Part shown: in pieces, positions 2,530 to 20,299 of the stretch
Layout: the number at the start of each line of letters is the position of its first letter
How positions within the stretch are numbered: the first letter of the stretch is position 1
IMG/VR virus record: IMGVR_UViG_3300005529_000109
Span: 1 to 21,034 of that record
Length of the DNA stretch: 21,034 nucleotides
Source of the DNA: a virus
Strand: one strand, 5' to 3'
Translations under genes and position numbers: made by a program
Notes under the pieces: model-generated
What the model was told of the DNA's origin: nothing
Database searches by the model: none
What the model saw: the letters and a program-made list of their open reading frames with translations, nothing else

Positions 2530-4473
2530 ATGGCCTGGTCAGTCCTGCAATCCAACAGCTTCACCAAAACCAGCGCCTCCACCTCCATCCCCGTCACCTA
2601 CACCAGCAACCTGACCACGGGCACGGTGCTGCTCGTCGCCATCGGCCAATCCGGCGGCGGCACGATCAGCAGCGTCAAGGACGGCGCGCTCAACACGTTC
2701 ACGCAGGTCGGGGTCGTCAACCTCGGCAACTCCAACGCCCACGGCGAATGCGCCCTCTACGCCCTGGCCACCCCCTCCGGGGACGTCGGCACCAAACCCA
2801 CGATCACCGTCACGTTCTCCGCGTCGGTGGTCGGCAGCGTGTGGATCGGCGAGGTCTCCGGCATCCAGGCCGTCACCGACGGCAGCGCGGCCACCGCGTT
2901 CGGGTCAGCCGGCGCGTGCACACCCACCTACTCCGACACCGCGGGCAGCGAGTTCTTCCTGACCGTGTTCGCCGACGACGGCGGACCGGAGACATCCTCC
3001 GTCACCGGCGGCTGGAGCGTCGACGGCAAGTCCGTCAACAACAACAACGACGCGAACATCGTCGTCGCGTACGGCAACTCCACCGGCGGCACCGAAACCA
3101 ACGCGTGGAGCTCGACCGGATCGACGACGTTCTGCGGCGCGGTCGCGGTCGCGTTCAAACTGGCCGGCGGCGCACACACCGCGACCCTCGCCGCGACAGC
3201 CACCGGCACGGCGTCACTGGGGCGGCAGGCGGCGCGCCCGCTCCCCGCGTCCGCCGCGCCCGCGGCGCTACTCGCACGCACCGTCACGCGGACGGCAGTC
3301 GCGGCAGCCACCGCAGCCGGCGTGCTGACGCGGCGACCGGTCAAGGCTCTGCCCGCGACCGGCGCAGGCTCGCCCACCACGGTCCGCTCGCTCGCGGCCG
3401 GGTACCGCGCCACGGGCACCGCGACACCCACGATCGGGCGCACCCCCGCCCGGACGCTCGCCGCCACAGCGACGGCAGTCCCGAGCATCGCCCCGGCCCG
3501 GATCCTCGCCCGCGCCCTCACCGCGGCCGCGACCGGCGCTGCGAGCATCGGGCGGCTCGCCCAGCGTGCCCTCACGGCTGCCGCGACCGGAACCGGGACC
3601 GTCGTCCCCGCGTTCGTCCACACTCTGGTCCTCGCCGCGACGGGCACCGCGACTGCGGCCCTGGGGCGGCTGACCGGCCGGCAGTTCTCGCGCACCGCGA
3701 CCGGCACACCCACGCTCACCCGCACCGGCAACCGCACCCTGGCGTCGACTACAGCCGGCGGCCCGGCGCTGGCCCGCGCCCTTAACCGCACCCACGCCAC
3801 GACCGCCGCCGCGAGCGCCGGGTTCGCGGCGTTGCGGGCGCGCCTGATCCAGCTCGTCACCACCGCGACCGCCACTGGCGGCTTCCAGCGCGCCATGGCC
3901 AAGACCACGGCGGCGACCTCCCTCGGGTCGCCGACACTGACCCGCAGCGCGGCGCGTCCCCTCGCCACGCCCGCGACCGGCAGCGCCGCCCTCACGCGAT
4001 CCGCCGTGCGGCCGCTCACCACCAGCGCCACCGGCCATGCCGCGCTCACCCCGCAACGGGTCCTTTTCCGCGCACTGAACGCCACTGCCACCGTAGCCAG
4101 CGCGCTGGCTACGGCCGCCACCCGCGCCACACGGTTCGCGGCCACCGCGGCCGGGACCACGACCCTCGCCCGCACGACGGCCCGCGCCCTGCCGGCCACC
4201 GCCAACACCGCCCCGACGCTCACCCGGGCCGTCACGGCGCGGCTCTCCGCGACAGCGACCGCCGCCGCCGCGCTCGGCCGGACCGTCGCCCGCACCCTGG
4301 CCCGCGCCGCGACCGCAGCCGTGTCGATCGTCGTCGCGCAAGCGCAACCGGGACGGATCCTCGCGCTCACTGCCGCCCGCGCCGCCGTGCGCTGGACCGC
4401 CACCGAAGGCCCCGCACGCTGGGCCGTCAGGGCCGCGACACGCTGGTCCAGCCGCGAGGGAGGCAACAGGTGA
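2530..4473 (+). CDS. Fibre-like structural protein with long 18-residue repeat array (647 aa)
   Basis: Residues 1 to about 212 form a beta-rich globular domain. It contains TGTVLLVAIGQ, VKDGALNTFTQVG and WIGEVSGI, the arrangement of a jelly-roll-like domain seen in many phage and secreted proteins. From about residue 215 to 605 the chain is a degenerate array of 18-residue units with consensus L-x-A-T-A-T-G-x-A-x-L-x-R-x-x-x-R-x. The last 35 residues are Trp/Arg-rich (RWTATEGPARW, then AATRWSSREG). The product is extremely rich in Ala, Thr and Arg and nearly lacks Cys. Translation probably starts at ATG 2530 behind GGGGGCGGG. The array probably forms an extended fibre or stalk with the N-terminal domain at one end. 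That is inference; the repeat itself is plainly visible. Confidence 0.75.
   Translation: MAWSVLQSNSFTKTSASTSIPVTYTSNLTTGTVLLVAIGQSGGGTISSVKDGALNTFTQVGVVNLGNSNAHGECALYALATPSGDVGTKPTITVTFSASVVGSVWIGEVSGIQAVTDGSAATAFGSAGACTPTYSDTAGSEFFLTVFADDGGPETSSVTGGWSVDGKSVNNNNDANIVVAYGNSTGGTETNAWSSTGSTTFCGAVAVAFKLAGGAHTATLAATATGTASLGRQAARPLPASAAPAALLARTVTRTAVAAATAAGVLTRRPVKALPATGAGSPTTVRSLAAGYRATGTATPTIGRTPARTLAATATAVPSIAPARILARALTAAATGAASIGRLAQRALTAAATGTGTVVPAFVHTLVLAATGTATAALGRLTGRQFSRTATGTPTLTRTGNRTLASTTAGGPALARALNRTHATTAAASAGFAALRARLIQLVTTATATGGFQRAMAKTTAATSLGSPTLTRSAARPLATPATGSAALTRSAVRPLTTSATGHAALTPQRVLFRALNATATVASALATAATRATRFAATAAGTTTLARTTARALPATANTAPTLTRAVTARLSATATAAAALGRTVARTLARAATAAVSIVVAQAQPGRILALTAARAAVRWTATEGPARWAVRAATRWSSREGGNR
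3174..4345 (+). repeat. Degenerate 54-bp / 18-aa tandem repeat array (about 20 copies)
   Basis: Successive units line up at 18 residues: LTAAATGAASIGRLAQRA, FSRTATGTPTLTRTGNRT, LASTTAGGPALARALNRT, LATPATGSAALTRSAVRP, LSATATAAAALGRTVART and others, with occasional 16- to 22-residue units. Positions 3-6 (A-T-A-T), 7 (G), 11 (hydrophobic), 13 (R) and 17 (R) are best kept. The DNA copies are diverged, so the array is old or under selection at protein level rather than a fresh expansion. Eighteen residues equal five alpha-helical turns or one left-handed beta-helix coil, so the period alone does not decide the fold. Confidence 0.8.
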
Positions 4474-4778
4474 CCAACCAGCTCGCCGCCAGCCTCATGT
4501 ACGTCACCGCCATCGTCACCTGCCTCAAAGGCAACCCCACCAGCGACACCGTGCAGATGGCGTTCATCACCCCCGGCACCGACCCGCAACCCACCGACTG
4601 GAAAGCGGCGTCGTGGGACACCACCGTCACTCTCGGCGCGAACCAGTACATGGCGCAATGCCTGATCGGCCCGGGCGGCACCGTGCAGCTGCCGGTGGGC
4701 AGCTACCAGTACTTCGTCAAAGTCACCGACAACCCGGAGATCCCGATCCTGCCGGTCGGGATGATCACCATCTACTGA
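4470..4778 (+). CDS. Small beta-rich structural protein (102 aa)
   Basis: The GTG start overlaps the stop of the repeat protein as GTGA, so the two are probably translationally coupled. The 102 residues look entirely beta: LAASLMYVTAIVTC, TVQMAFITPG, DTTVTLGANQYMAQCLIGPGG, GSYQYFVKVTDNPEIPILPVGMITIY. The VKVTDNPE-x-P-x-LPVG ending is a pattern I associate with unnamed virion-surface proteins of actinobacteriophages. The coupling to the fibre-like gene suggests that the two products assemble together, perhaps as a cap or base of the fibre. The function is not known. Confidence 0.65.
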   Translation: MTNQLAASLMYVTAIVTCLKGNPTSDTVQMAFITPGTDPQPTDWKAASWDTTVTLGANQYMAQCLIGPGGTVQLPVGSYQYFVKVTDNPEIPILPVGMITIY

Positions 4779-4790
4779 CGGGAGGCGAAC

Positions 4791-5429
4791 GTGACCGCGA
4801 CCGTGGACGTGTGCCCGTGCGGCGCCCCCGTGGAGGCCGCCTACCAGCGGCACCTGACGCAGGCCGAGTACGACGCGCTGCCCGAAGGACTCAAGCCGAT
4901 CGACGGGTACGCCACCATCGCGGTATGGGCGTGCGGGGACTGCCACCCCGGCCCGATCTGCCAGCACCCCGCCGCCGAACCGGCGGCATGTCCAACCTGC
5001 AATGCGCAGCCCGGCGAGCAGTGCGTCAAAGCCGACGGCACCGTGCGCCCGCACGAGCACCCCGCGCGCCAGGACGCCCAACCCGTCCCCGACACGTGCA
5101 CGCACGCGCACCGCGAGACCTGCACCGATCCGCGCACCTGCCAGTGCACCGGCCAAGACGAGCCGCCGGGCCGCCTCCCCCGCGTCGTGCTGCCCCCCAC
5201 CGTGCAGGCCTCGCTCGCCGACCTCGGCGTACCCCCCGCGATGCTCCCCCATGCTGCACAGTGGGCAGCCGAGCGCGGCATCGACATCGCCAGGGTTCGC
5301 GGCGGATTACGGTCGGGACTCACGCAGGACAACCGCCCGGCGCTGCTGTTCGACTACGCCACCGGCATCGACGCCCACGGCCGCGAACAGACCGAACTGC
5401 GCATCGAACCCATCGAGACACCCCAGTGA
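4791..5429 (+). CDS. Cysteine-rich zinc-binding hypothetical protein (212 aa)
   Basis: The first 120 residues carry twelve cysteines in several clusters. They are C8-P-C10, C48-x2-C51-x5-C57, C67-x2-C70-x7-C78 followed by His88/His90, and C103...C111...C117-x-C119. The third cluster (CPTCNAQPGEQC, then a short basic segment and H-x-H-P-A-R) matches a small zinc finger frequent in actinobacterial and phage proteins. The remaining 90 residues have no cysteine and include a PPAMLPHAAQWAAERGIDIARVRGG helical pair and a beta-like C-terminus. The GTG start follows GGGAGG at suitable spacing. The stop overlaps the next start (GTGA), tying it to the packaging genes. It contains the only leucine TTA codon I found in the window (5307-5309). 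A nucleic-acid-binding role is inferred. Confidence 0.65.
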   Translation: MTATVDVCPCGAPVEAAYQRHLTQAEYDALPEGLKPIDGYATIAVWACGDCHPGPICQHPAAEPAACPTCNAQPGEQCVKADGTVRPHEHPARQDAQPVPDTCTHAHRETCTDPRTCQCTGQDEPPGRLPRVVLPPTVQASLADLGVPPAMLPHAAQWAAERGIDIARVRGGLRSGLTQDNRPALLFDYATGIDAHGREQTELRIEPIETPQ

Positions 5430-6173: not shown

Positions 6174-7643
6174 GTGACCGCCACCCTCGACTGGGCCGAA
6201 TACGCCGCCCGCGAATTCGAAGACCGCACCGCGTACTACCGAAACGACCCGGCAGCCTGGGCGCGAGACAAACTCGGCGAACACCTGTGGTCAAAACAAA
6301 TCGACATCGCCGAGTCCGTGCGAGACCACCGCCGAACCGCCGTACAGTCCTGCCACGGCGTCGGGAAAAGCTGGTCAGCCTCACGCCTCACCGCATGGTG
6401 GCTCGACACCCACCCCGTCGGCGAGGCCCGCGTGGTGACCACCGCGCCCACCGGGGACCAGGTCGCCGCCATCCTCTGGTCCGAGATCAACGGAGCGTTC
6501 GCGAAAGCCGAGGCGCGAGGCAACCCCTTCCCTGGCCGCATCAACGAGACCGACTGGAAACTCGGAAAACAACTCGTCGCGTTCGGCCGCAAGCCATCCG
6601 ACTACAACCCGCACGCGTTCCAAGGCATCCACGCCAAGTACGTGCTCGTCATCATCGACGAAGCGTGCGGCGTCGCGAAACAGTTCTGGACCGCCGCCAA
6701 CTCGATCGCCACAGGAGAGCACTGCCGCATCCTCGCGATCGGCAACCCCGACGACCCCGGCTCCTACTTCGCGCAGGTCTGCGCCCGTGGCCGTTGGAAC
6801 ACGTTGCGGATATCCGCGTTCGACTCCCCGAACTTCACCGGCGAACCCGTCCCCGATGACGTCGCGTCGATGCTCGTCGGGCAGTCCTACGTCGATGAGA
6901 TGGCGCAGGAATACGGCGAACAGTCCCCGGTGTACATCTCCAAGGTCCTGGGCTTGTTCCCGTCCGACGCCGAGGACGGCGTGGTGCGCCTCTCGGCACT
7001 GCGCGCCTGCGCCCAGCCGCGCGAGACACCGCTCGCACCCGAGCAACTCCTGCCGGTCGAACTCGGCGTGGACCTCGGCGCGGGCGGCGACGAGACCTGC
7101 ATCCGTGAACGCCGCGGCATCCAAGTGGGCCGGGAGTGGCGCACCCGCGGCCGCGACCCGATCAAGGTCGCGAACCTGATCGTCGAGTCGATCCGCACCA
7201 CGGGCGCCACCGCCGTGAAGGTCGACTCGATCGGCATCGGCTGGGGCATCGTCGGCACGCTTCGCGAACGCCGCGAGCAAGGCGCACACAGCGCCGAGGT
7301 GCTCGGCGTGAACGTCGGCACCGCCTCCGCGCAGCCGCAGCGTTTCCCGCGGCTTCGTTCGCAGATCTGGTGGGAGATCGGCCGGCAGCTCTCGGAAGAC
7401 CGCGGCTGGGACCTCTCAGGGCTGGACGCGGACGACCGTGAGCGCCTGATCTCGCAGCTGACCGCGCCGAAGTACGCGCACGACTCCTCGCGGCGGATCG
7501 TGGTGGAGAAGAAGGAAGACACCAAGAAGCGGATCGGGCGGTCGCCGGACAACGCGGACGCGCTGCTGTTGGCGTTCTATGCGGCCCCGGGCGGATACGA
7601 CCAGGCGATGGGCTGGCTGGCCGGGATGCGCGCGACCGCGTGA
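6174..7643 (+). CDS. terL: Terminase large subunit (489 aa)
   Basis: This is the ATP-driven DNA packaging motor and genome-end nuclease. The ATPase domain has a Walker A-like SCHGVGKS at residues 59-66, a TTAPTGDQV segment at 89-97, Walker B VIIDEA at 159-164 with the catalytic Glu163, and a coupling-like AIGNPDDP at 188-195. The C-terminal RNase H-like nuclease shows its acidic residues: Asp300 in ELGVDLGAGGDE, Asp351 in VKVDSIGIGWG, and Asp459/Asp462 in SPDNADALLLAFY. The length is normal for the family and both activities look intact. GTG at 6174 follows GAGGGGGC. Packaging partners are the small subunit upstream and the portal downstream. Confidence 0.95.
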   Translation: MTATLDWAEYAAREFEDRTAYYRNDPAAWARDKLGEHLWSKQIDIAESVRDHRRTAVQSCHGVGKSWSASRLTAWWLDTHPVGEARVVTTAPTGDQVAAILWSEINGAFAKAEARGNPFPGRINETDWKLGKQLVAFGRKPSDYNPHAFQGIHAKYVLVIIDEACGVAKQFWTAANSIATGEHCRILAIGNPDDPGSYFAQVCARGRWNTLRISAFDSPNFTGEPVPDDVASMLVGQSYVDEMAQEYGEQSPVYISKVLGLFPSDAEDGVVRLSALRACAQPRETPLAPEQLLPVELGVDLGAGGDETCIRERRGIQVGREWRTRGRDPIKVANLIVESIRTTGATAVKVDSIGIGWGIVGTLRERREQGAHSAEVLGVNVGTASAQPQRFPRLRSQIWWEIGRQLSEDRGWDLSGLDADDRERLISQLTAPKYAHDSSRRIVVEKKEDTKKRIGRSPDNADALLLAFYAAPGGYDQAMGWLAGMRATA

Positions 7644-7919: not shown

Positions 7920-10715
7920 GTGTCGCGCCGCAACCGCAACCGCCGCCCCAACGGCCAGCACTACCAGGTACGCCGCTCCACCGACGCCGAAATGGCCAAA
8001 GCCGCCACCCCCGGCGTCGGACCCGGCGCCACCCTCTACACCGCGCAGCAAGTCGCCGCCCTCGTCGCGGCCGGCGTCAACCCGCAAACCAGCGGCGCGT
8101 TCAACCCGCTGCCCCGCCTCGACCCGCAAGTCGCCTTCGGCCCCGGCCTGCCGCTGCTACCCGCCGCGATCGACCCCACCCGCCGCGACACCGGACGCCC
8201 CGAACCCCGCTTCACCGAATACCAGGTCTCCAGCAACCTGCCCGGTGTCACCGACCGGCTCGTCCCCTGGAAGGTCCTGCGCGACGCCGCAGCCGCCGGC
8301 GGCATCCCGCGCCGCTGCATCCAGATCCGCAAAGACGAGATCACCACCCTCGAGTGGACCATCACGATCTCCAAGGACGCGGTCGCGAAAGCCGAGGCCG
8401 CCAGCCCCGGGTCCTCGCGCGCCGACGTGGAAGCCGACCTGCGTAAGCGCCTGGGCCCCGAGATCGCCCGCTGCACCGCGTTCTGGGAGCGTCCCGACCC
8501 AGGGCAGGACGAGGACTGGCCCGACTGGATCGGCAAACTCCTCGAAGAGCACCTGGTGTTGGACGCGGTGGCGATCTATCCGCGGCGCACCTACGGCGGC
8601 GACCTGCACTCCCTGGAGATCATCGACGGGACCACGGTCAAAGTCCTGCGGGACTATCGTGGCGGCAAACCCCTGCCGCCCAACCCCGCCTACCAGCAGA
8701 TGCTGTGGGGTTTCCCCCGCGGCGAATACGTCGCCGACGTCGACGACGAAGGCCGCATCCTCAACGCGTACGCCCCCGACACGCTGATCTACAAGCGGCG
8801 CAACGTGCGCGCCGAGACCCTCTACGGGCACTCCGCCGTCGAGCAGTGCCTCGAAGACCTTGACGTGTGGCTGCGTCGGCGCGCCTGGATCCGCGCGGAG
8901 TTCACCGACGGCACCGTGCCCGCGGGGCTGCTGCGCAACACGGGCGCGAACTCGTGGACGCCGCAGCAGGTCCTGGAGTACGAGACGGCGTTGAACGACG
9001 CCTGGTCGGGTCAGACGCTGGAGCGGCACCGGATGCGGATCCTGCCGCCCGGGTTCGAACTGGAGTCGACGCCGGATGTCGCGGAACGCTACAAGCCCGA
9101 GTACGACCTGTTCCTGCTCAAGCAGCTCGCGGCGCATTTCTCCACGACGATCGCGGAACTGAACTTCACCGAGACCGGCGGCATCGGTAGCAGCGGGTAC
9201 CACGAGGGTCAGGCGGACATCAAGGAACGCATCGCGACGATGCCGACCTACCGGTGGATCCAGGGCCTGATCACGGGTATCTCGCGGCGGCACCTGGGGA
9301 TGCCCGGCGAGCTGGAGTTCAAGATCCTCGGCTTGGAGGATGAGGACGAGGCTGCGGCGGACGAGGTCGCGGGCAACCGGGTCAAGTCGGGGCGGATGAC
9401 GTACAACGAGGACCGCGACCGGCTGGGGCTGCCGCGGTACCCGTTCGCTGAGGCGGACATGCCGATCGTGGAGACCAGCCGCGGCGTGATCTTCCTGGAG
9501 GGTGCGAGCAAACTCGCGCCGCCGGGCGAGACCGTCACGCCGCTCGAAGCACCGCCGAACAAGGACGCCGACGCCGACGGCATCCCGGATCAGGACGAGG
9601 CCGCTGACGGCGAGCAAACCGCCGACAGCGCACCCGGCCGGCCGGACACGCAGGCCGTCAAAGCGGAGATCGCCGCGTACCGCAACTGGGCGCGCCGCAA
9701 CCCCAAGCCAGGCCGTGCCTTCCGCACCGAGATCCTCACGAAAACCGACGCGCCCGGCGACATGGCCGCCGACCCGCGCGTCACCTTCGCCGCGGCAGGC
9801 GGTGACCGGGCCGCCCCAAAAGAGCGTGACCCGGACCGGCCGCACTGGCCGGGCTGGGACCGCGACAAGGCCACCGCCGCCGTGTGGGCGCCACGCATCC
9901 GCAAAGCCATGCGCGGCGCCGTGGACACCCGGGCGCTCGCCGAGGCATGGCTCGCCGCCCGGCACCCGGCGCTCACCAAAGCCGACGAAGCAGACCTGCC
10001 CGACGGCTACGACGATGACCCCGACGGGCCGGACATCTACGGCCAGGACTCCGCCACGTGGCTCGCCGAATACGGCATCGACCTCACGACCGCGCTCGCG
10101 GCCCTGATCGTCGGACTGTGGACCGAGGGCTACGCGATCGGCGACCTGTCCGCGACCGCGGTCCTGGCCGGGATCGCGCACATCGACTGGTCGCGGTGGA
10201 CTCCCGGGGACGCCGACGCGGCGCGCCTCGTGCTCGACGAGAACGGCCGTAACGGGCTCGCGCTACTACTCGATCAAGCCGGGATCAGCATCAACTCGAT
10301 CGCCGCGAACCGGCTCGACAAGCTCGCGAAGGCGCTCGCGGACGCGCTCGCGCGCGGCGATTCCTCCGGGACGCTGGCCGGCGTGCTGCGCGGCATCCTG
10401 GACGACCCGCAGTGGGCCGACATGGTCGCGATCACGGAGTTGGCGCGGGCGACGAGCGTCGCGGCGATGAACACCTACCGCGCGAACGGCATCGAGGCCA
10501 CGTACTGGGCCACGGCGGACGACGACAGGGTCTGCAGCGCGGTCTGTGAGCCGAACGAAGCGCAGGGCGCGGTGCCGCTCGGCGCGGCGTTTCAGAGCGG
10601 CGACACAGAGCCGCCAGGGCGCCCGGTATGTCGATGCGCTCCCATACCGGCATTGACATCGCTGGCCGATATCGACCCGTCCGACCTGGCCGGAGCCGAC
10701 GCGGCAAACGGCTGA
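7920..10715 (+). CDS. Portal protein fused to MuF-like minor head domain (931 aa)
   Basis: Residues about 60-520 read as an HK97-type portal, the dodecameric ring through which DNA enters the head. Features are VPWKVLRDAAAAGGIPRRCIQIRKDEI, the ETLYGHSAVEQCLEDLDVWLRR helix, and the C-terminal ATMPTYRWIQGLI region. A charged linker follows (residues 540-700, with EIAAYRNWARRNPK), and then a MuF-type domain (about 715-931). The latter includes VAITELARATSVAAMNTYR and WATADDDRVCSAVCEPNE and ends PPGRPVCRC, the Cys/Arg signature of Mu gpF-like minor head proteins. The fused form is about twice the length of a plain portal. The histidine usual before P-x-C-R-C is Arg here. GTG 7920 follows GAGGGGG about ten bases upstream. 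Capsid genes follow. Confidence 0.9.
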   Translation: MSRRNRNRRPNGQHYQVRRSTDAEMAKAATPGVGPGATLYTAQQVAALVAAGVNPQTSGAFNPLPRLDPQVAFGPGLPLLPAAIDPTRRDTGRPEPRFTEYQVSSNLPGVTDRLVPWKVLRDAAAAGGIPRRCIQIRKDEITTLEWTITISKDAVAKAEAASPGSSRADVEADLRKRLGPEIARCTAFWERPDPGQDEDWPDWIGKLLEEHLVLDAVAIYPRRTYGGDLHSLEIIDGTTVKVLRDYRGGKPLPPNPAYQQMLWGFPRGEYVADVDDEGRILNAYAPDTLIYKRRNVRAETLYGHSAVEQCLEDLDVWLRRRAWIRAEFTDGTVPAGLLRNTGANSWTPQQVLEYETALNDAWSGQTLERHRMRILPPGFELESTPDVAERYKPEYDLFLLKQLAAHFSTTIAELNFTETGGIGSSGYHEGQADIKERIATMPTYRWIQGLITGISRRHLGMPGELEFKILGLEDEDEAAADEVAGNRVKSGRMTYNEDRDRLGLPRYPFAEADMPIVETSRGVIFLEGASKLAPPGETVTPLEAPPNKDADADGIPDQDEAADGEQTADSAPGRPDTQAVKAEIAAYRNWARRNPKPGRAFRTEILTKTDAPGDMAADPRVTFAAAGGDRAAPKERDPDRPHWPGWDRDKATAAVWAPRIRKAMRGAVDTRALAEAWLAARHPALTKADEADLPDGYDDDPDGPDIYGQDSATWLAEYGIDLTTALAALIVGLWTEGYAIGDLSATAVLAGIAHIDWSRWTPGDADAARLVLDENGRNGLALLLDQAGISINSIAANRLDKLAKALADALARGDSSGTLAGVLRGILDDPQWADMVAITELARATSVAAMNTYRANGIEATYWATADDDRVCSAVCEPNEAQGAVPLGAAFQSGDTEPPGRPVCRCAPIPALTSLADIDPSDLAGADAANG

Positions 10716-12809: not shown

Positions 12810-12828
12810 GGCCCCGCTGTGCGGGGCC
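12810..12828 (+). terminator. GC hairpin just upstream of the major capsid gene
   Basis: GGCCCCGC (12810-12817) pairs perfectly with GCGGGGCC (12821-12828) around a TGT loop. TTCC follows, then the AAGGAG (12839-12844) of the capsid gene. It may attenuate transcription, or protect the 5' end of a processed capsid mRNA. The true T-tract of a strong terminator is missing. The function is inferred. Confidence 0.55.
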
Positions 12829-12851
12829 TTCCGCATGGAAGGAGCAGGGCC

Positions 12852-14597
12852 GTGGCTCTGCCCGCGAACCTCGAACTGCTCTTCGGCGAGTCGCCGGAAG
12901 CCCCGAAGCTGTCGAAGGCGGAAGTCTCCGAGCGCTTCGACGACCTGATCAAGTCCATCGGTGACATGCCCGAGCGGGAACTGTCCCGCGAGGAGATCGT
13001 CACCTCGTTCCGCGGCGGCCAGCCGATCGACTTCTCCAGCCGGCCCACGAACGCCTACCAGTACGTTCAGAAGGCGCTCGGCGCGCCGGAACTGAACAAG
13101 GCGATCTCCCCGGACACCGTCGCCTCGGTGATGGCGGCCCTCGACGGGCTCAAGTCGCAGCAGCCGGACTTGGTCAAGGACATCAACCTGACCTCCCCGG
13201 TCGGCACCGGCCTGGTCGCGTTCGACCTGGAGGCCCCGGCGAAGATCCTGGCGCCGCGCCCGACGCCGCTGCGCAACTCGATCCCGCGGATCAAGGGCAA
13301 CGGCACGAGCCACCGGTTCAAGGTGATCTCCGGGTTCACCGGCTCCGGGACCGGCGGTGTCGGCAACATCCACCCCGGCATCCTGGACACCACGCAGAAC
13401 AACTTCGCGCCCTCGGGCTCCAGCAACTCGCTGTACTACGCGCGCGGCCCGAAGATCTCCTACGCCGGTTACGACGTGGTGCTGCCCTACTCGCAGTTCA
13501 GCATGAGCGACGAGGTGACCTGGTCGGCGCAGTACGGCGGACAGGGCTACCAGGACATCCGGCAGCTCTCGCGCACCAGCCTGCTGTACGCCAGCATGCT
13601 CATGGAGGAGCGGATGCTGCTGATGGGCCGCGGCACCGCGTCCGGGTACGCAGGAGCGCTCGCGGCCCCGACCGGCACGTCCCTGGTGGACAACACGCTG
13701 GGCACGGGGCAGGTCGCGCTGACCGGGTACACCACGAACATCTACGTGTACGTCACCGCGGACGCGGGCGCGTTCGGCGAGTCCGTGGTGTCCACGGTGG
13801 CCACGATCGCGCCGACCGCCGGGCACAACGTGGTGCTGCGCCTGACCGACGTCCCGCAGGCCCTGGGCTACAAGGTGTACATCGGCACCGGCGCGTCGCA
13901 GCCGGCGAACTCGTCATTCTTTTTCTACGGCCGGTTCCCGAACCAGGCCGCGAACGGCGGCGGCGCGGGCGGCACGGGCATCGTGCTGCAGGGTGCGATC
14001 CCGACCTCGGGCGCGAACCCGCCCACCGCAGACTCCTCGGCGTACGCGGCGGGTTACGACGGGATCCTCGCGTGGGCGATGGGCACCTCGTCCGGCTACA
14101 ACGTGAAGATCAACTCGACGTTCTCGACGAGCAACCCGGGCAGCGAGTTCCAGACCGCGTTCGCGAGCCTCTACAACAGCGTGAAGGCCGACCCGGACCG
14201 GATCCTGTTCAACGGCGCCGACCGCAAGCAGCAGTCCGACACGCTCAAGGCGGGAAGCAGCAACAACTACTTCCTGCAGATCACGCAGGACGAGGTGCGG
14301 GGCGTCGCCCTCGGCTCCGTCGCCGTGGCGATCATGAACGAGACGACCGGCAAGCGCGTCGAGATGGAAGTCAACCCCTGGCTCCCGCAGGGCGTGTGCC
14401 CGATCCTCTCGGACACCCTGCCGATCCCGGACACGCAGGTCTCCAACGTGTGGTCCGTGGTCAACGTGCAGGACCTGATGGGCATCGACTGGCCCGTCAC
14501 GCAGTTCGCCTACGAGTCCAGCTCGTACTGGTTCGGTTCTTTCATCTGCTACGCCCCGGCGTGGAACGGCTGCGTCTCCGGCGTCACCGCCGCCTGA
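12852..14597 (+). CDS. Major capsid protein, HK97 fold with apparent Ig-like insertion (581 aa)
   Basis: This is the shell protein, judged from its position directly after the protease, its size and HK97-like segments. It has a helical N-terminal arm (residues 18-110, with LSKAEVSERFDDLIKSIGDM). The body begins near ILAPRPTPLRNSIPRIKG (132-149). A spine-helix-like DIRQLSRTSLLYASMLMEERMLLMG spans 235-259. The C-terminal half has FQTAFASLYNSVKADPDRILFNG (433-455). Residues about 272-395 look like an inserted beta sandwich (IYVYVTADAGAFGESV, ALGYKVYIGTG, SSFFFYGRF) and make the protein longer than a basic HK97 subunit. GTG 12852 is fixed by AAGGAG at 12839-12844 with 7-base spacing. A 17-bp hairpin follows the stop. 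Whether the arm is cleaved cannot be seen. Confidence 0.88.
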   Translation: MALPANLELLFGESPEAPKLSKAEVSERFDDLIKSIGDMPERELSREEIVTSFRGGQPIDFSSRPTNAYQYVQKALGAPELNKAISPDTVASVMAALDGLKSQQPDLVKDINLTSPVGTGLVAFDLEAPAKILAPRPTPLRNSIPRIKGNGTSHRFKVISGFTGSGTGGVGNIHPGILDTTQNNFAPSGSSNSLYYARGPKISYAGYDVVLPYSQFSMSDEVTWSAQYGGQGYQDIRQLSRTSLLYASMLMEERMLLMGRGTASGYAGALAAPTGTSLVDNTLGTGQVALTGYTTNIYVYVTADAGAFGESVVSTVATIAPTAGHNVVLRLTDVPQALGYKVYIGTGASQPANSSFFFYGRFPNQAANGGGAGGTGIVLQGAIPTSGANPPTADSSAYAAGYDGILAWAMGTSSGYNVKINSTFSTSNPGSEFQTAFASLYNSVKADPDRILFNGADRKQQSDTLKAGSSNNYFLQITQDEVRGVALGSVAVAIMNETTGKRVEMEVNPWLPQGVCPILSDTLPIPDTQVSNVWSVVNVQDLMGIDWPVTQFAYESSSYWFGSFICYAPAWNGCVSGVTAA

Positions 14598-15975: not shown

Positions 15976-16857
15976 GTGATCACCCCGTACGTGTCCGCCG
16001 CGTCGTTCCGCGCCCATCCGACCTACCTGGACCTCGACGACCTGCGCTACAACGACCCATCCTCGCTCGACCAGACCGCACAGTTGAACGATCTTCTGCT
16101 GATGTCCTCGGCGTGGGCCGACGGGTACTGCGAGCAACCCCTCGCGGCGCACCAGAACGTGCAGAACCTGCGCACCCGCTTCACCCGCGACGGAACCCTG
16201 AAAGTCCACCCGGACCACACCCCGGTCATCACGGTCACCTCGGTCGGCTACGGCTACACACCCACGTCGCTGACGACGTTCACGAACCCGGCCGTGTGGA
16301 GCGAGGACGGCCGCAACCTGGTCGTCACGATCGGCAGTGGTGGGCCGTGGACCGGGTCCTTGCAGTTCGGCGTCCCCGGCGCAGGCGCGCAGGTGTACAC
16401 GCAGCTCGTCTACACGGCCGGGTTCGTCGCCACGGTCCTGTCGGCCGGCGCCTCGGCAGGCGCGATGTCGCTGAGCGTCACGGACCCTACGGGCATCGAG
16501 CCCGGCGGCGTCTACCGGATCTGGGAGCCGGGCGCGGAGGAAAGCGTCACCGTGTCCTCCGCGTTCACACCCCCGGCATTTAGCGTGCCGCCGGTCCCCA
16601 CGGCCGTGCCGCTCGCGGCCCCGACGCTGTTCGCGCACACCGCGGCCCAGGACTTCACGAACATGGAGCACGACATGCGGCTCGGGATCGTGAACTACAC
16701 GGTCGCGCAGCTACTGCGCCCGGACACCGCCGCTGAGGACGCCTACCCGGACTCGCGCATGGCGTCGGGGACCCGGCAGACCGACTCACGCAAGGACGGT
16801 TCGGGCCTGATCGACGAGGCCGAGCGGCTGCTGGAGCGCTTCCGCAGGGTTCGCTGA
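15976..16857 (+). CDS. Head-tail connector protein with inserted beta domain (293 aa)
   Basis: The N-terminal half begins with a helical pair typical of gp6/gp15-like head-tail connectors (SAASFRAHPTYLDLDDL, QTAQLNDLLLMSSAWADGYC). It is followed by strands (TRFTRDGTLKVHPDHTPVITVTSVGYG) and a QLVYTAGF stretch. Residues about 150-215 look like an inserted beta domain (AGAMSLSVTDPTGIEPGGVYRIWEPGAEESVTV). The C-terminal helices (FTNMEHDMRLGIVNYTVAQLL, then GLIDEAERLLERFRRV) resume the connector pattern. The GTG follows GGAGGTAA six bases upstream. Such proteins form the ring beneath the portal. The assignment rests on helical pattern and gene order. Confidence 0.7.
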   Translation: MITPYVSAASFRAHPTYLDLDDLRYNDPSSLDQTAQLNDLLLMSSAWADGYCEQPLAAHQNVQNLRTRFTRDGTLKVHPDHTPVITVTSVGYGYTPTSLTTFTNPAVWSEDGRNLVVTIGSGGPWTGSLQFGVPGAGAQVYTQLVYTAGFVATVLSAGASAGAMSLSVTDPTGIEPGGVYRIWEPGAEESVTVSSAFTPPAFSVPPVPTAVPLAAPTLFAHTAAQDFTNMEHDMRLGIVNYTVAQLLRPDTAAEDAYPDSRMASGTRQTDSRKDGSGLIDEAERLLERFRRVR

Positions 16858-16914
16858 CGGCACCGCGCCGCCGTATCGGGTTGTTGGCTTCGTGATGCCG
16901 GATGGGGGTCGCCG

Positions 16915-17445
16915 GTGTCGATTCAGAACGTGCTGGACGGGATCTGCCAGTACTTCGGCGGCCCGTTCGACGCCCAGACGCGCACTTACCGCTCTTCGCT
17001 GGTGGACGGCGTCGGCGTGGTGCGCCGCGCCTGGGCGAAACGCGACAACCACGCCGACTACTTCAACGGCATGCCGCCCGGCACCCGCACCGGCAGCCAG
17101 ATCGTCGTGCACATAGCGCACCAGCGCGAGACCCGCAAAGCGGTCGGCGGAGCCACCAGCGGCGTCAAACGAGTGACGTACACGGTGGTGCTGCACTGCT
17201 ACATCCGCTCCAACACCCCGTTCGCGGAGGACGCGCAGGACGACGTGTACGCGCTGCGCGACAACCTGGTCGCGCGGCTGCGGCAGGACCGCACGCTCGG
17301 CGGCGCGGTGTTCCAGGCCGGTGAGGCCGTGGACGGCGAACTGTCCTGGATCGAGTTCGAGTACGGGCAGGCCGAAACCAAGGACGAGTTGACCAAGAAC
17401 TACCTGTCCATGCAGTTCCCCGTCACCGAGTACGTGTTCGCCTAA
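16915..17445 (+). CDS. Probable tail terminator / neck protein (176 aa)
   Basis: The protein starts with a short helix (IQNVLDGICQYFGG), continues with strands (TYTVVLHCYIRSNTPF, then a long helix AEDAQDDVYALRDNLVARLRQDRTLGG), and ends with a strand pattern LSWIEFEYGQAETKDELTKNYLSMQFPVTEY. The helix-strand-helix order and the LR-x-D-x4-GG segment fit tail-terminator-like proteins that cap the tail tube. It lies between the connector and the tail tube protein. The GTG follows GATGGGGGT. The family call is by pattern and position, so confidence is moderate; a stopper protein is the alternative. A short A-G spacer separates its stop from the next ATG. Confidence 0.6.
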   Translation: MSIQNVLDGICQYFGGPFDAQTRTYRSSLVDGVGVVRRAWAKRDNHADYFNGMPPGTRTGSQIVVHIAHQRETRKAVGGATSGVKRVTYTVVLHCYIRSNTPFAEDAQDDVYALRDNLVARLRQDRTLGGAVFQAGEAVDGELSWIEFEYGQAETKDELTKNYLSMQFPVTEYVFA

Positions 17446-17446
17446 G

Positions 17447-17887
17447 ATGGCCGGCCGCGGTCGCAGGCACGGTGCGCGACGGCACCAGGCCCGCAGGCAC
17501 GAGTCCGCGGCCGCCCGCAAGCGGCTCTCGGCACGGGAGAAGGGCCACAAGCACCCGCACAAGGGCAGCCACGCGCACCGCCGCCACACCGGGCACCGGC
17601 ACCCGGCGCGACGGCACACCGCGCACCGCCGCAAGGGGCTGAAACACCCGCACCGCGGGCCACACACCAAGCACACCCAGCGGCGCAAGGCGACCCGGCA
17701 CCGCCGCACGGTACATCGCGCGACACGCCACCACGCCACGCCGCATATCCGGCGTGAACGCATCCGCCCTGCTCGGTTCGCCCGCGGCCACACCCGCCTG
17801 CCCTCACGGTTCCGCAAAGGCCGACGCATCCGCGGCATGCGCTCCCCGTTCACCGCCGGGCGCCGGCACACCCGCGCCTGGCGCTGA
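17447..17887 (+). CDS. Extremely Arg/His-rich basic protein (146 aa)
   Basis: I count 42 Arg, 24 His and 9 Lys in 146 residues (51%) against three acidic residues (Glu). The centre repeats a histidine motif: GHKHPHKGSHAHRRHTGHRHP, followed by GLKHPHRGPHTKHTQRR. The C-terminal third is Arg-rich with few His (RRERIRPARFARG, RFRKGRRIRGMR). It opens one base after the previous stop (TAAGATGG), keeps about nine in ten third positions G or C, and fills what would be a 485-base gap. Caution: out-of-frame readings of GC-rich genes also look Arg/His-rich, but no competing open frame covers this region on either strand. It might condense or neutralise nucleic acid like a protamine, or bind metal through histidines. 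No family is recognised. Confidence 0.65.
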   Translation: MAGRGRRHGARRHQARRHESAAARKRLSAREKGHKHPHKGSHAHRRHTGHRHPARRHTAHRRKGLKHPHRGPHTKHTQRRKATRHRRTVHRATRHHATPHIRRERIRPARFARGHTRLPSRFRKGRRIRGMRSPFTAGRRHTRAWR

Positions 17888-17930
17888 TCGCCCCCTTCCC
17901 GCCCCGCCAGCCCGAGAGGGAGGCCGCCGC

Positions 17931-18215
17931 ATGCCCCCGCGCACCCGAACACCCAGCCCGCCGCAAACCGAGACCCGAGCGCCCGACGGCGAGCAGCCCG
18001 AACCGGACCACGGCGGATGGTTCCGCAACACCGGCGCCACCTCGCTCACGGTCCTCGGCGACGGCGTCACCGCCGTACTCGCGCCCGGCCGCATCGCCGC
18101 CCTGAACCGCACCCCCACGCACCGGGACCTGACGCCCGCCACTGAGGCGGACTTCCTCGCGCAGCAGGCCGCCGACACGGCGTCCGAGGCCAGCACCGAC
18201 GAGACGGAGGCGTAA
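17931..18215 (+). CDS. Small acidic hypothetical protein upstream of the tail tube gene (94 aa)
   Basis: GAGGGAGG upstream fixes the ATG. The 94-residue protein has a Pro/Glu/Arg-rich disordered start (MPPRTRTPSPPQTE...), a small beta core (GWFRNTGATSLTVLGDGVTAVLAPGRIAAL) and an acidic helical end (ATEADFLAQQAADTASEASTDETEA). The core pattern W-x-RNTG...LxPG appears in small phage proteins next to tail tube genes. The acidic tail contrasts with the basic protein just upstream, and the two might interact, which is speculative. The stop is six bases before the tail tube start, and GGAGG within its last codons serves that gene. Confidence 0.6.
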   Translation: MPPRTRTPSPPQTETRAPDGEQPEPDHGGWFRNTGATSLTVLGDGVTAVLAPGRIAALNRTPTHRDLTPATEADFLAQQAADTASEASTDETEA

Positions 18216-18221
18216 CCAGCC

Positions 18222-19238
18222 ATGGCCGGCCCCACCACCTTTCCCTCCGTCAAGCGGTTCATCGGCTTCGCGAAGGAAACCACACCCGGCACCCCGGTCG
18301 CCCCGGTCGCGTACATGCCGGTGACGAAGTTCGACTGGAACGACAAGCCGACGTGGCTGGATGACAAAGGCCTGCGCGGCGTGATGGCGGACGACTCGTT
18401 CAACGTCATCCAGGGCGTGCAACTCGGGGAGATCGACTTCGAAGGGCCGGTGTTCGCCGACGAACTGGGCTACCTGATCGGCAACATCATGGGCGCCGAC
18501 GACACCACCGGCGCGTCCGCCCCGTTCACGCACAAGTTCTCGCTGCTCAACACCGGCGGCGGCCAGCCGACGACGCACACCGTCACCCAGTACTACATGG
18601 CCGAGCCGACGCACCAGGCCCGGCAGTTCTCCGGCACGTGCGTCTCGGAAGTCGGGTTCAAGTTCAACGCCGAGTCCGAGCTGCTCACGTACACGGCGAA
18701 GGCCGCCTCCTGGGTCAGCAACGTGGCCGCCGCGACGCCGACGGCGACGTTCACCACGGCCAAGCCGCTGCCCTCCTGGCAGTCGGTGCTGGGTATCGCC
18801 GGCCCGGCGTCGGGCGGCACGCAGGTGCTCACGGTCGCGTCGGGCGAGTTCAACTTCAAGCGCTCACTCAAGCCGTACTTCACCGCGCAGAACTCACAGA
18901 ACCCGTACATCATCCAGCGCGGCGGCCTGACCGCGGACTGGAAGTTGTCGTTCGTCGCCGCCGACGAGACGCCGCTGACGTACATGCGCAACAACACCCA
19001 GCCGCAAATCCAGTTCATCCTCAACAACGGCCTCACGCTCGCCAACGCCCTCGTGGTGCAGGTGGACATGGCGCAGGCGGCGTTCACCGAGGCCAAGCCG
19101 AACTTCGGCAGCGAGGCCGTCATGTTCGACTGCACCGGGCGGTGCGTGCTGAACACCACGAACATCGGCACGTCGGGCGGGTACGGCCCGGCGACGATCA
19201 CGCTGCAGAACGCCATCGCCGCATCGACGTACGTGTAA
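18222..19238 (+). CDS. Major tail tube protein (338 aa)
   Basis: The sequence reads as a siphovirus tail tube protein: RFIGFAKETTPGTPVAPVAYMPVTKFDWNDKP at the N-terminus, a REG-type core (MADDSFNVIQGVQLGEIDFEGPVFADELGYLIGNIMG), then strands (SEVGFKFNAESELLTYTAKAASW, VASGEFNFKRSLKPYFTAQNSQNPY). It ends with a VMFDCTGRCVLNTTNIG segment. Length and gene order, ahead of the tail chaperone and tape measure genes, match. The product forms the hexameric tail tube through which DNA passes. The start ATG is preceded by GGAGG a few bases upstream, overlapping the previous gene end. It is probably the most abundant protein of the tail. Confidence 0.85.
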   Translation: MAGPTTFPSVKRFIGFAKETTPGTPVAPVAYMPVTKFDWNDKPTWLDDKGLRGVMADDSFNVIQGVQLGEIDFEGPVFADELGYLIGNIMGADDTTGASAPFTHKFSLLNTGGGQPTTHTVTQYYMAEPTHQARQFSGTCVSEVGFKFNAESELLTYTAKAASWVSNVAAATPTATFTTAKPLPSWQSVLGIAGPASGGTQVLTVASGEFNFKRSLKPYFTAQNSQNPYIIQRGGLTADWKLSFVAADETPLTYMRNNTQPQIQFILNNGLTLANALVVQVDMAQAAFTEAKPNFGSEAVMFDCTGRCVLNTTNIGTSGGYGPATITLQNAIAASTYV

Positions 19239-19254: not shown

Positions 19255-19752
19255 ATGAAGATCGACCTCCCGTCCGGGGCGTGGGCGGACCTGCTCGCCC
19301 CGGACAAACTCAAGGCCAAGCACCAGCGCGCCGTGATGCGCGCGGTCACCGCCCAAGACCAGCGGGAAGGCGGCATGGCCGTCGACCTGACCGACGGTGT
19401 GATCGCCATCATCATCCAGGACTGGAACGTCACCGGCGACAACGGTGAACTGCTGCCGCTGCCCAGCGAGAAGTTCGCGTCCCTCGACGAACTCACGATC
19501 GAGGACTACGAGACGCTGCTGGGCCACGAGTACGTGGTGCAGGTCGCCACGCGGCTGATGAAGCTGCGCGGCGAACGCGTCTCCCCGGACGACTGGGACG
19601 ACCCCGAGTCCCCTTCCGTGCCCTCAGCCGCATCCGGGCCCGGCTCGAGGGCGGAGAGATCCCCGAGCACAAGAACGTCCGCACGGAGTGGGACGAAGAC
19701 GAAATCTACGCCCGGTTCGCGGAGCGCTGGGGCTGGCCGCCGCAAGTCGTAG
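19255..19752 (+). CDS. Tail assembly chaperone, G-type product (165 aa)
   Basis: The first ~120 residues (IDLPSGAWADLLAPDKLKAKHQRAVMRAVTAQDQREGG..., FASLDELTIEDYETLLGHEYVVQVATRLMKLRGERVSPDDWDDPES) look like a tail assembly chaperone. Such proteins guide the tape measure protein before tube formation. The gene lies between the tail tube and tape measure genes. Beyond codon 120 the 0-frame becomes Ser/Thr/Arg/Pro-rich (SPSTRTSARSGTKTKSTPGSRSAG), a typical out-of-frame reading. In the -1 frame a well-formed sequence continues to 19847. The AAGGA before the ATG fixes the start. Two products, short and frameshifted, are expected; the 0-frame tail may be a by-product. Confidence 0.7.
   Translation: MKIDLPSGAWADLLAPDKLKAKHQRAVMRAVTAQDQREGGMAVDLTDGVIAIIIQDWNVTGDNGELLPLPSEKFASLDELTIEDYETLLGHEYVVQVATRLMKLRGERVSPDDWDDPESPSVPSAASGPGSRAERSPSTRTSARSGTKTKSTPGSRSAGAGRRKS
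19602..19614 (+). other. Candidate -1 ribosomal frameshift region
   Basis: The chaperone frame (codon starts at 19255+3n) and the real coding downstream (codon starts one base earlier) overlap here. The 0-frame codons are CCC GAG TCC CCT TCC from 19603. A slip at C-CCC (19602-19605), where the tRNA-Pro can re-pair perfectly, or at CCT/CCC (19611-19614) would join the frames. No textbook slippery heptamer is seen, so the exact site is uncertain. A sequencing indel is the alternative. Confidence 0.5.
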
Positions 19753-19847
19753 ACGAGATCCCCGTCGGCCCGTTCAACCATCTGCTGCCGATCGCGCAGG
19801 TTTTCGACGAAGTGCGCGCCGAACGCGAGAACAGGCGGTGGAACTGA
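19614..19847 (+). CDS. Frameshift extension of the tail assembly chaperone (T-type part)
   Basis: In the -1 frame relative to the chaperone gene, the region encodes FRALSRIRARLEGGEIPEHK, then WDEDEIYARFAERWGWPPQVV and a C-terminus DEIPVGPFNHLLPIAQVFDEVRAERENRRWN ending at TGA 19845-19847. The sequence has a balanced composition, unlike the 0-frame tail, and lacks an own start or ribosome binding site, so it should be made as an extension. The fused product would be about 197 residues. It overlaps the next gene as TGATG. Phage T-type extensions bind the tail tube protein and tape measure; that role is assumed from the family. Confidence 0.65.
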   Translation, partial: FRALSRIRARLEGGEIPEHKNVRTEWDEDEIYARFAERWGWPPQVVDEIPVGPFNHLLPIAQVFDEVRAERENRRWN

Positions 19848-20299
19848 TGAGCGTGATCCTGGTGGGCGTCCCGCAGTTCACGGCGGCTCTCGACGCGCTG
19901 GTGGCCGCAGCCGGCGAAGCCACGAAGATAGCGGTGATCAAGGGCGGTCACCTGATACAGGCGGAAACCCAGAAGAAGCTCACCACGTCCTCGCACAAGA
20001 AGGGCACGCCCACGCCCTCACAGCCGGGCGAGCCGCCGTCTCTGGTGACCGGGCAGCTGCGCCGATCCATCCGCACAGATCACCCCAATCGCGGTGGTGA
20101 CGGGATCTGGTCGACGCGGATCGGCCCGACCGCCGCGTACGGGCGCATCCAGGAACTCGGCGGGGTTACCGGGCGCGGGCATGCGACGACACTGCCCGCA
20201 CGCCCGTATCTCGCGCCAGCGCTGGAGGCCGCGATCTCCTCGGGCCGTCTGGGCGAGGTGTTCGACGAGGCATGGCGTGTAGCACTCGGCCACCTGTGA
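19847..20299 (+). CDS. HK97 gp10-like neck/tail-completion protein (150 aa)
   Basis: The pattern is that of HK97 gp10-like proteins: an N-terminal helix (PQFTAALDALVAAAGEATKIAVIKGGHLIQAETQKKL), a loop with PGEPPSLVTGQLRRSI, strands with IWSTRIGPTAAYGRIQELGG, and the hallmark LPARPYLAPALEAAI. Such proteins usually sit at the head-tail junction or help tail completion. The ATG overlaps the stop of the chaperone extension (TGATG), which confirms the extension as coding. Its place directly before the tape measure, instead of before the tail tube gene, is less common. The C-terminal helix ends with FDEAWRVALGHL. Confidence 0.8.
   Translation: MSVILVGVPQFTAALDALVAAAGEATKIAVIKGGHLIQAETQKKLTTSSHKKGTPTPSQPGEPPSLVTGQLRRSIRTDHPNRGGDGIWSTRIGPTAAYGRIQELGGVTGRGHATTLPARPYLAPALEAAISSGRLGEVFDEAWRVALGHL

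Follow-up and report, generated by a model that had tools for sequence, protein, structure and literature searches.

Is a GC-rich open reading frame (ORF) of low-complexity appearance, located inside the head-tail module of a phage, a true gene, and what could its strongly basic product do? This question is raised by positions 17447-17887 (+ strand) of the IMG/VR virus record IMGVR_UViG_3300005529_000109, the whole of which (21,034 bases, containing a tailed-phage structural module) was analysed and is called here the window. The ORF starts with ATG and encodes a protein of 146 amino acids, of which 42 are Arg, 24 His, and 9 Lys (75/146, 51%), with no Asp and only three Glu, and its net charge is about +48, His not counted. 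We conclude that it is a real, previously unclassified, and accessory gene.

A previous description made from the letters alone (the sequence-only reading) had pointed out that over half of the residues are Arg, His, or Lys, that there are two imperfect His-rich repeats, that the third codon positions are strongly G/C, and that the frame begins one base after the previous stop. The counts bear this out: both repeats, GHKHPHKG and GLKHPHRG, were found, the G+C content by codon position is 0.75/0.66/0.88, and the TAA codon of the upstream tail terminator gene ends at 17445, with the ATG at 17447.

The polybasic ORF is a genuine gene

The basic frame and its position are kept in four divergent phages, i.e., the window and the IMG/VR relatives L002, L003, and L009. 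The best segments are in frame and share 67% (L002), 64% (L003), and 68% (fragment L004) identity with the window protein, and the L009 homologue, which was located via its terminator gene, has an intact basic frame in the same slot. An in-frame basic ORF at the equivalent place, which one of the checks proposed by the sequence-only reading asked for, is thus present in these three relatives. The second check, dN/dS, also indicates a coding gene under purifying selection: between pairs drawn from the window, L008, L009, and L017 (L008 and L017 being second labels of L002 and L003, respectively), dN was 0.22-0.33 and dS 0.58-0.87, with ratios of 0.27-0.47, and the third codon positions were the most variable.

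The extreme basic content is itself held by selection. When the window gene was evolved neutrally to 68% identity, its Arg/His/Lys fraction fell from 0.51 to 0.39 +/- 0.03 (2000 simulations), and the 0.50-0.52 found in the relatives was reached by 0/2000 simulations. Simple net charge discriminates less well, the observed value being reached by 1/2000 (L017), 33/2000 (L008), and 89/2000 (L009) simulations.

The sequence-only reading was mistaken in excluding other open frames over the region. The whole gene is covered by an antisense ORF at 16786-17952 (388 aa, - strand), and two others (17423-17791 and 17442-17807) overlap most of it. The conclusion survives this error because the competing frames are interrupted by stops in the homologues (5 in L009 and 1-3 in L017 for the phase of 16786-17952, assigned by hand), while the basic frame is uninterrupted; relatives with stops in the basic frame, the outcome named beforehand as fatal, were thus not found. 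Despite the overlapping antisense ORFs, the in-frame homologues, the dN/dS values, and these stops rule out an artefact of GC-rich DNA read in the wrong frame, whose probability we regard as practically negligible. The claim that a head-tail module here contains a true coding gene for a strongly basic product therefore holds, on the strength of the homologues in place, the purifying selection, and the maintained Arg/His/Lys content. A frameshift extension of the terminator is equally unsupported, as every member has a new start codon right beside the stop of the terminator.

Long antisense ORFs are typical of GC-rich DNA and could mislead a simple ORF caller. The window has several over coding genes on the - strand, at 16786-17952, 2928-5252, and 8157-10181.

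Composition and predicted structure of the product

The alignment of the homologues (alignment A6) shows that the HPH repeats are conserved and delimits three parts (all + strand). The N-terminal block ESAAARKRLSAREKGHKHPHKGSH (17501-17572) is conserved and resembles NUMOD3, as discussed below. The second repeat, KGLKHPHRG (17633-17659), has a counterpart, KGLKHPHKG, in a second lineage of polybasic proteins. The C-terminal block, RERIRPxxFxxGxTRLxSRFxKGxRIRGxRSPxxAGRRHxxAW(R/K) (17753-17884), is the most conserved.

The protein is predicted to be intrinsically disordered. The AlphaFold model, built from only four sequences, is a disordered chain with a mean pLDDT of 54 and a pTM of 0.13, and its single predicted helix (residues 21-27) lies inside the conserved block HESAAARKRLSAREKGHKHPHKGSH. 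Protamine and the adenovirus core proteins are Arg-rich polycations, and the likeness to them is one of composition, with no sequence match. The term protamine-like used by the sequence-only reading is thus appropriate for the composition and for nothing beyond it.

Distribution of the gene and a second lineage

Most of the terminator relatives fetched have 170-440 bases between the terminator and tail tube genes, space only for the small gene that precedes the tube gene. When 21 whole records were searched with a profile, the known carriers alone had the basic gene, and the non-carriers had it at no other place either (two overlapping matches in the L007 record correspond to one gene). In the terminator tree, the carriers occupy two separate positions, so that three changes of state are needed. 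Since most relatives are without it, the basic gene is accessory.

Three other relatives, L054, L056, and L078, have gaps of about 780-840 bases between the terminator and the small gene, each with a reverse-strand ORF. That of L054 (MASYSDVQKAVRVEKFRIW...) is membrane-like, with a similar one in L078, and that of L056 is apparently exported, judged by eye. Because these gaps carry other ORFs, the junction takes different accessory genes and looks like an insertion site for them.

A polybasic, repeat-built protein occupies the terminator-adjacent slot in a second lineage, comprising L005 (181 aa), L007 (210 aa), L126, and the cultured Arthrobacter phage Mufasa8, which was identified via its tail tube. 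The L005 and L007 proteins contain RKGLKHPHKG, KGYHVHRKKG, and related repeats. L126 was added by a DNA pattern scan for GL(K/H)HPH(K/R)GxxH-like repeats, its gene lying directly 3' of the terminator with a TGA-G-ATG spacing. In Mufasa8, where the terminator is gp9 and the tube gp12, the gene is gp10 (MN586027, 10173-10646), annotated as a hypothetical protein of 157 aa. Compared by script, seven genes start between -1 and +2 bases from the terminator stop.

Like the window protein, Mufasa8 gp10 follows the tail terminator (with a 1-base overlap between its start and the terminator stop), has polybasic repeats, and lacks Asp; it differs in its repeat unit (RKKPVYTHP, not RKGLKHPHKG) and in its STSSYITMFS end. 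The latter is shared in part by the lineage: L005 and L007 end in SASSYLSMF and L126 in SPASYLSMF, giving a consensus (S/A)SY(L/I)(S/T)MF, where the window lineage has instead GRRHxxAW(R/K). Aligned locally, the window protein and L005 reach a z of 6.2 (0/500 composition-matched shuffles as good), and L005 and Mufasa8 a z of 9.3, but the window protein and Mufasa8 gp10 only a z of 2.6, so that their tie runs through L005. Because this direct similarity is weak, we limit the claim of homology between the two lineages to the repeats and the slot, a pattern that convergence or transfer could also produce.

Further relatives were not recovered by tblastn of the window and L007 proteins in named phages (low-complexity filter on), a search with a DNA pattern of the SSYLSMF tail gave L005, L007, and unrelated short ORFs alone, and two scans of genome contigs gave no confirmed relative. 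Phage Sonali (L019) has in the matching slot (about 4567-4722) an unannotated 51-aa ORF that is not strongly basic. Shuffling lends its homology no support, with a z below 0, only the slot and its terminal STSYASNF (cf. the SSYLSMF tails) being suggestive. Record L120 contains at 7114-7347 an HPHKG-repeat ORF (78 aa from stop to stop, 45% Arg/His/Lys) with no recognisable terminator adjacent, which overlaps the end of an ORF (6815-7201) that by eye looks like an HNH endonuclease.

Search for a known family

As the sequence-only reading had stated, the window protein matches no family significantly in Pfam, PHROGs, or the PDB sequences. It has no Pfam match to the nucleoid proteins HU, H-NS, or Lsr2 at E up to 1 or 10, and no PHROG or Pfam match to tail completion, tape measure, or stopper proteins, for which the disordered four-sequence model (pTM 0.13) offers no fold either. 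GIY-YIG and HNH nuclease domains gave no Pfam or PHROG match in the window protein, the only hit being phrog_314 in one homologue (E 5.1). Judged from titles and abstracts, no paper evidently describes the protein, and the one paper that names Mufasa8 deals with a starter culture.

The only lead is NUMOD3 (PF07460), a DNA-binding motif of phage GIY-YIG/HNH homing endonucleases. The block RPESAATRKKLSAREKGRKHPHKG of the L003/L017 homologue matches it with E 0.011, and with 18.5 bits when the record was searched. This best score is below the curated Pfam cut-off of 20.4 bits, and the window protein itself has no match; single NUMOD3 copies of T4 score 15.6-25.8 bits, a range that includes it. 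Eight shuffles and one reversed copy gave 0 matches. A matrix built from seven T4 copies scored best at the N-terminal block in 4/4 members, with shuffle frequencies of 30/4000, 40/4000, 48/4000, and 0/4000 (p from about 0.012 to <0.0003), the members being related and not independent. The S-x-x-x-R-K-x-L-S-x-x-x-K-G register fits the T4 copies, but the basic protein is Arg/His-rich rather than of mixed charge and has no detected nuclease domain, and the profile-profile comparison (hhalign) is weak (E 0.026, probability 2%). Because the matrix was made after the Pfam match had been seen and the four members are related, we treat the resemblance as a sub-threshold lead and not as membership.

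The surrounding head-tail module

The flanks agree with the location between neck and tail tube genes given by the sequence-only reading. The upstream gene (16915-17445, + strand) encodes a product whose AlphaFold model (11 relatives, pLDDT 78) has the predicted fold of a tail terminator, its best PDB matches including lambda gpU, T5 p142, and the R4C terminator. Downstream are the small gene (17931-18215, + strand), which is retained in relatives both with and without the basic gene and has no family match in Pfam or PHROG searches, and the tail tube gene (18222-19238, + strand; PF18906, E 4e-18; phrog_290). Elsewhere in the module lie the genes for the terminase large subunit (6174-7643), for a portal with a fused Mu-F-like domain (7920-10715), and for a head-to-tail adaptor (15976-16857), and 19688-20299 gives a Neck1/tail completion match. 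A 592-aa protein (12819-14597), near the expected position of the major capsid protein, strongly matches PHROG 13692, of unknown function (E 7e-85).

Proposed role and alternatives

We propose, giving it about an even chance, that the product is a disordered accessory protein that binds nucleic acid, serves in head-tail assembly, and is probably present in the virion. The ORF would be a late gene of accessory type whose translation is probably coupled to that of the upstream terminator gene, and the disordered polycation may bind nucleic acids non-specifically through its Arg/His/Lys repeats, the short NUMOD3-like helix being a possible DNA contact. It would most likely act at the neck/tail or its surroundings during assembly, where it could hold or shield the DNA end, or accompany the DNA on its entry into the cell; docking would likely fall to the conserved C-terminal segment, which is of the RAWR type in the window lineage and of the SYLSMF type in the second lineage. 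Because a disordered polycation appears to be made together with the terminator, a nucleic-acid- or lumen-binding role seems the simplest. The suggestion that the protein could neutralise or bind DNA is plausible and partly supported, but simple arithmetic sets +48 per chain against the roughly 200,000 phosphates of a 100-kb genome, so that bulk neutralisation would take thousands of copies. Unless the protein is very abundant, its role is therefore more likely to be a local one.

Two phage systems are comparable by description. The T4 internal proteins IPI-IPIII, our working comparison, are small and non-essential proteins that enter the particle as it is assembled and leave it together with the DNA (PMC9026906); an N-terminal peptide targets them to the capsid, and they form part of the head core, whereas the basic gene sits in the tail module. 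The N-terminal segment of P1 Ref is a disordered, positively charged DNA-binding region (PMC4330346), but it is fused to an HNH nuclease and has 25 positive residues in 76. The neck of 80alpha has electrostatically matched conduit interiors: its inner lining is acidic, its tape measure basic, and the basic face of a tail completion protein is turned toward the DNA end (PMC11661146). We count this structure in favour of a DNA-binding protein at this place.

Several observations weigh against our proposal. This type of tail does not require the gene, which is absent from most relatives, and a few dozen copies, each at +48, carry too little charge to neutralise a genome of about 100 kb. The NUMOD3 score lies below the cut-off, is called in 1/7 members, and has weak hhalign support. 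The net charge without His is less exceptional for L009, and both binding and presence in the virion are inferred.

An electrostatic assembly factor is an unlikely alternative. Such a protein would not bind DNA but line or plug the acidic terminator/tube lumen or aid tape-measure packing, and might be lost from the mature particle. The near-zero spacing of the gene between terminator and tube and the negative neck/tail interior of 80alpha, filled by a basic tape measure (PMC11661146), fit this possibility, but most relatives with homologous terminator and tube lack the gene, and a NUMOD3-like block would be unexpected. We consider rather doubtful that the gene is a domesticated homing endonuclease remnant, i.e., a NUMOD3-type DNA-binding tail that inserted here, was stripped of its nuclease, and persisted as a DNA binder or neutral passenger. 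The NUMOD3-like block, the HPHKG-repeat ORF of L120 near its HNH-looking ORF (by eye), and the unrelated accessory genes in this slot of other relatives suggest it; the nuclease domain was not found in Pfam or PHROG, NUMOD3 is below the cut-off and confined to one lineage, and purifying selection with maintained basic content speaks against decay. Also doubtful, and to be taken as speculation, is the idea of a new class of phage protein, a disordered polycation composed of homing-endonuclease-type DNA-binding repeats, which a short C-terminal docking peptide (SYLSMF type) would recruit to the tail/neck and which would clamp or escort the genome end, the repeats being free to vary as long as the charge and the docking tail persist.

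It is improbable that the protein is host-directed, made late or injected to bind host DNA, RNA, or ribosomes and aid host take-over: its accessory, lineage-specific distribution would suit this role, but nothing links it to the host and its place within the tail module points to assembly. Finally, metal binding, the chelation raised by the sequence-only reading, is very improbable and has no support other than the 24 His and the conserved HPH repeats, since these His lie within Arg/Lys-rich repeats without Cys or acidic ligands and most RKKPVYTHP units of Mufasa8 have a single His.

Our results demonstrate that a low-complexity-looking GC-rich ORF, easily discarded by annotators, proves to be a selected gene. 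They define, in a group of soil bacteriophages, an unclassified polybasic protein family whose genes occupy a single, constant slot in siphophage tail modules, and its cultured member, Mufasa8 gp10, allows direct testing of its role at the neck/tail DNA interface.
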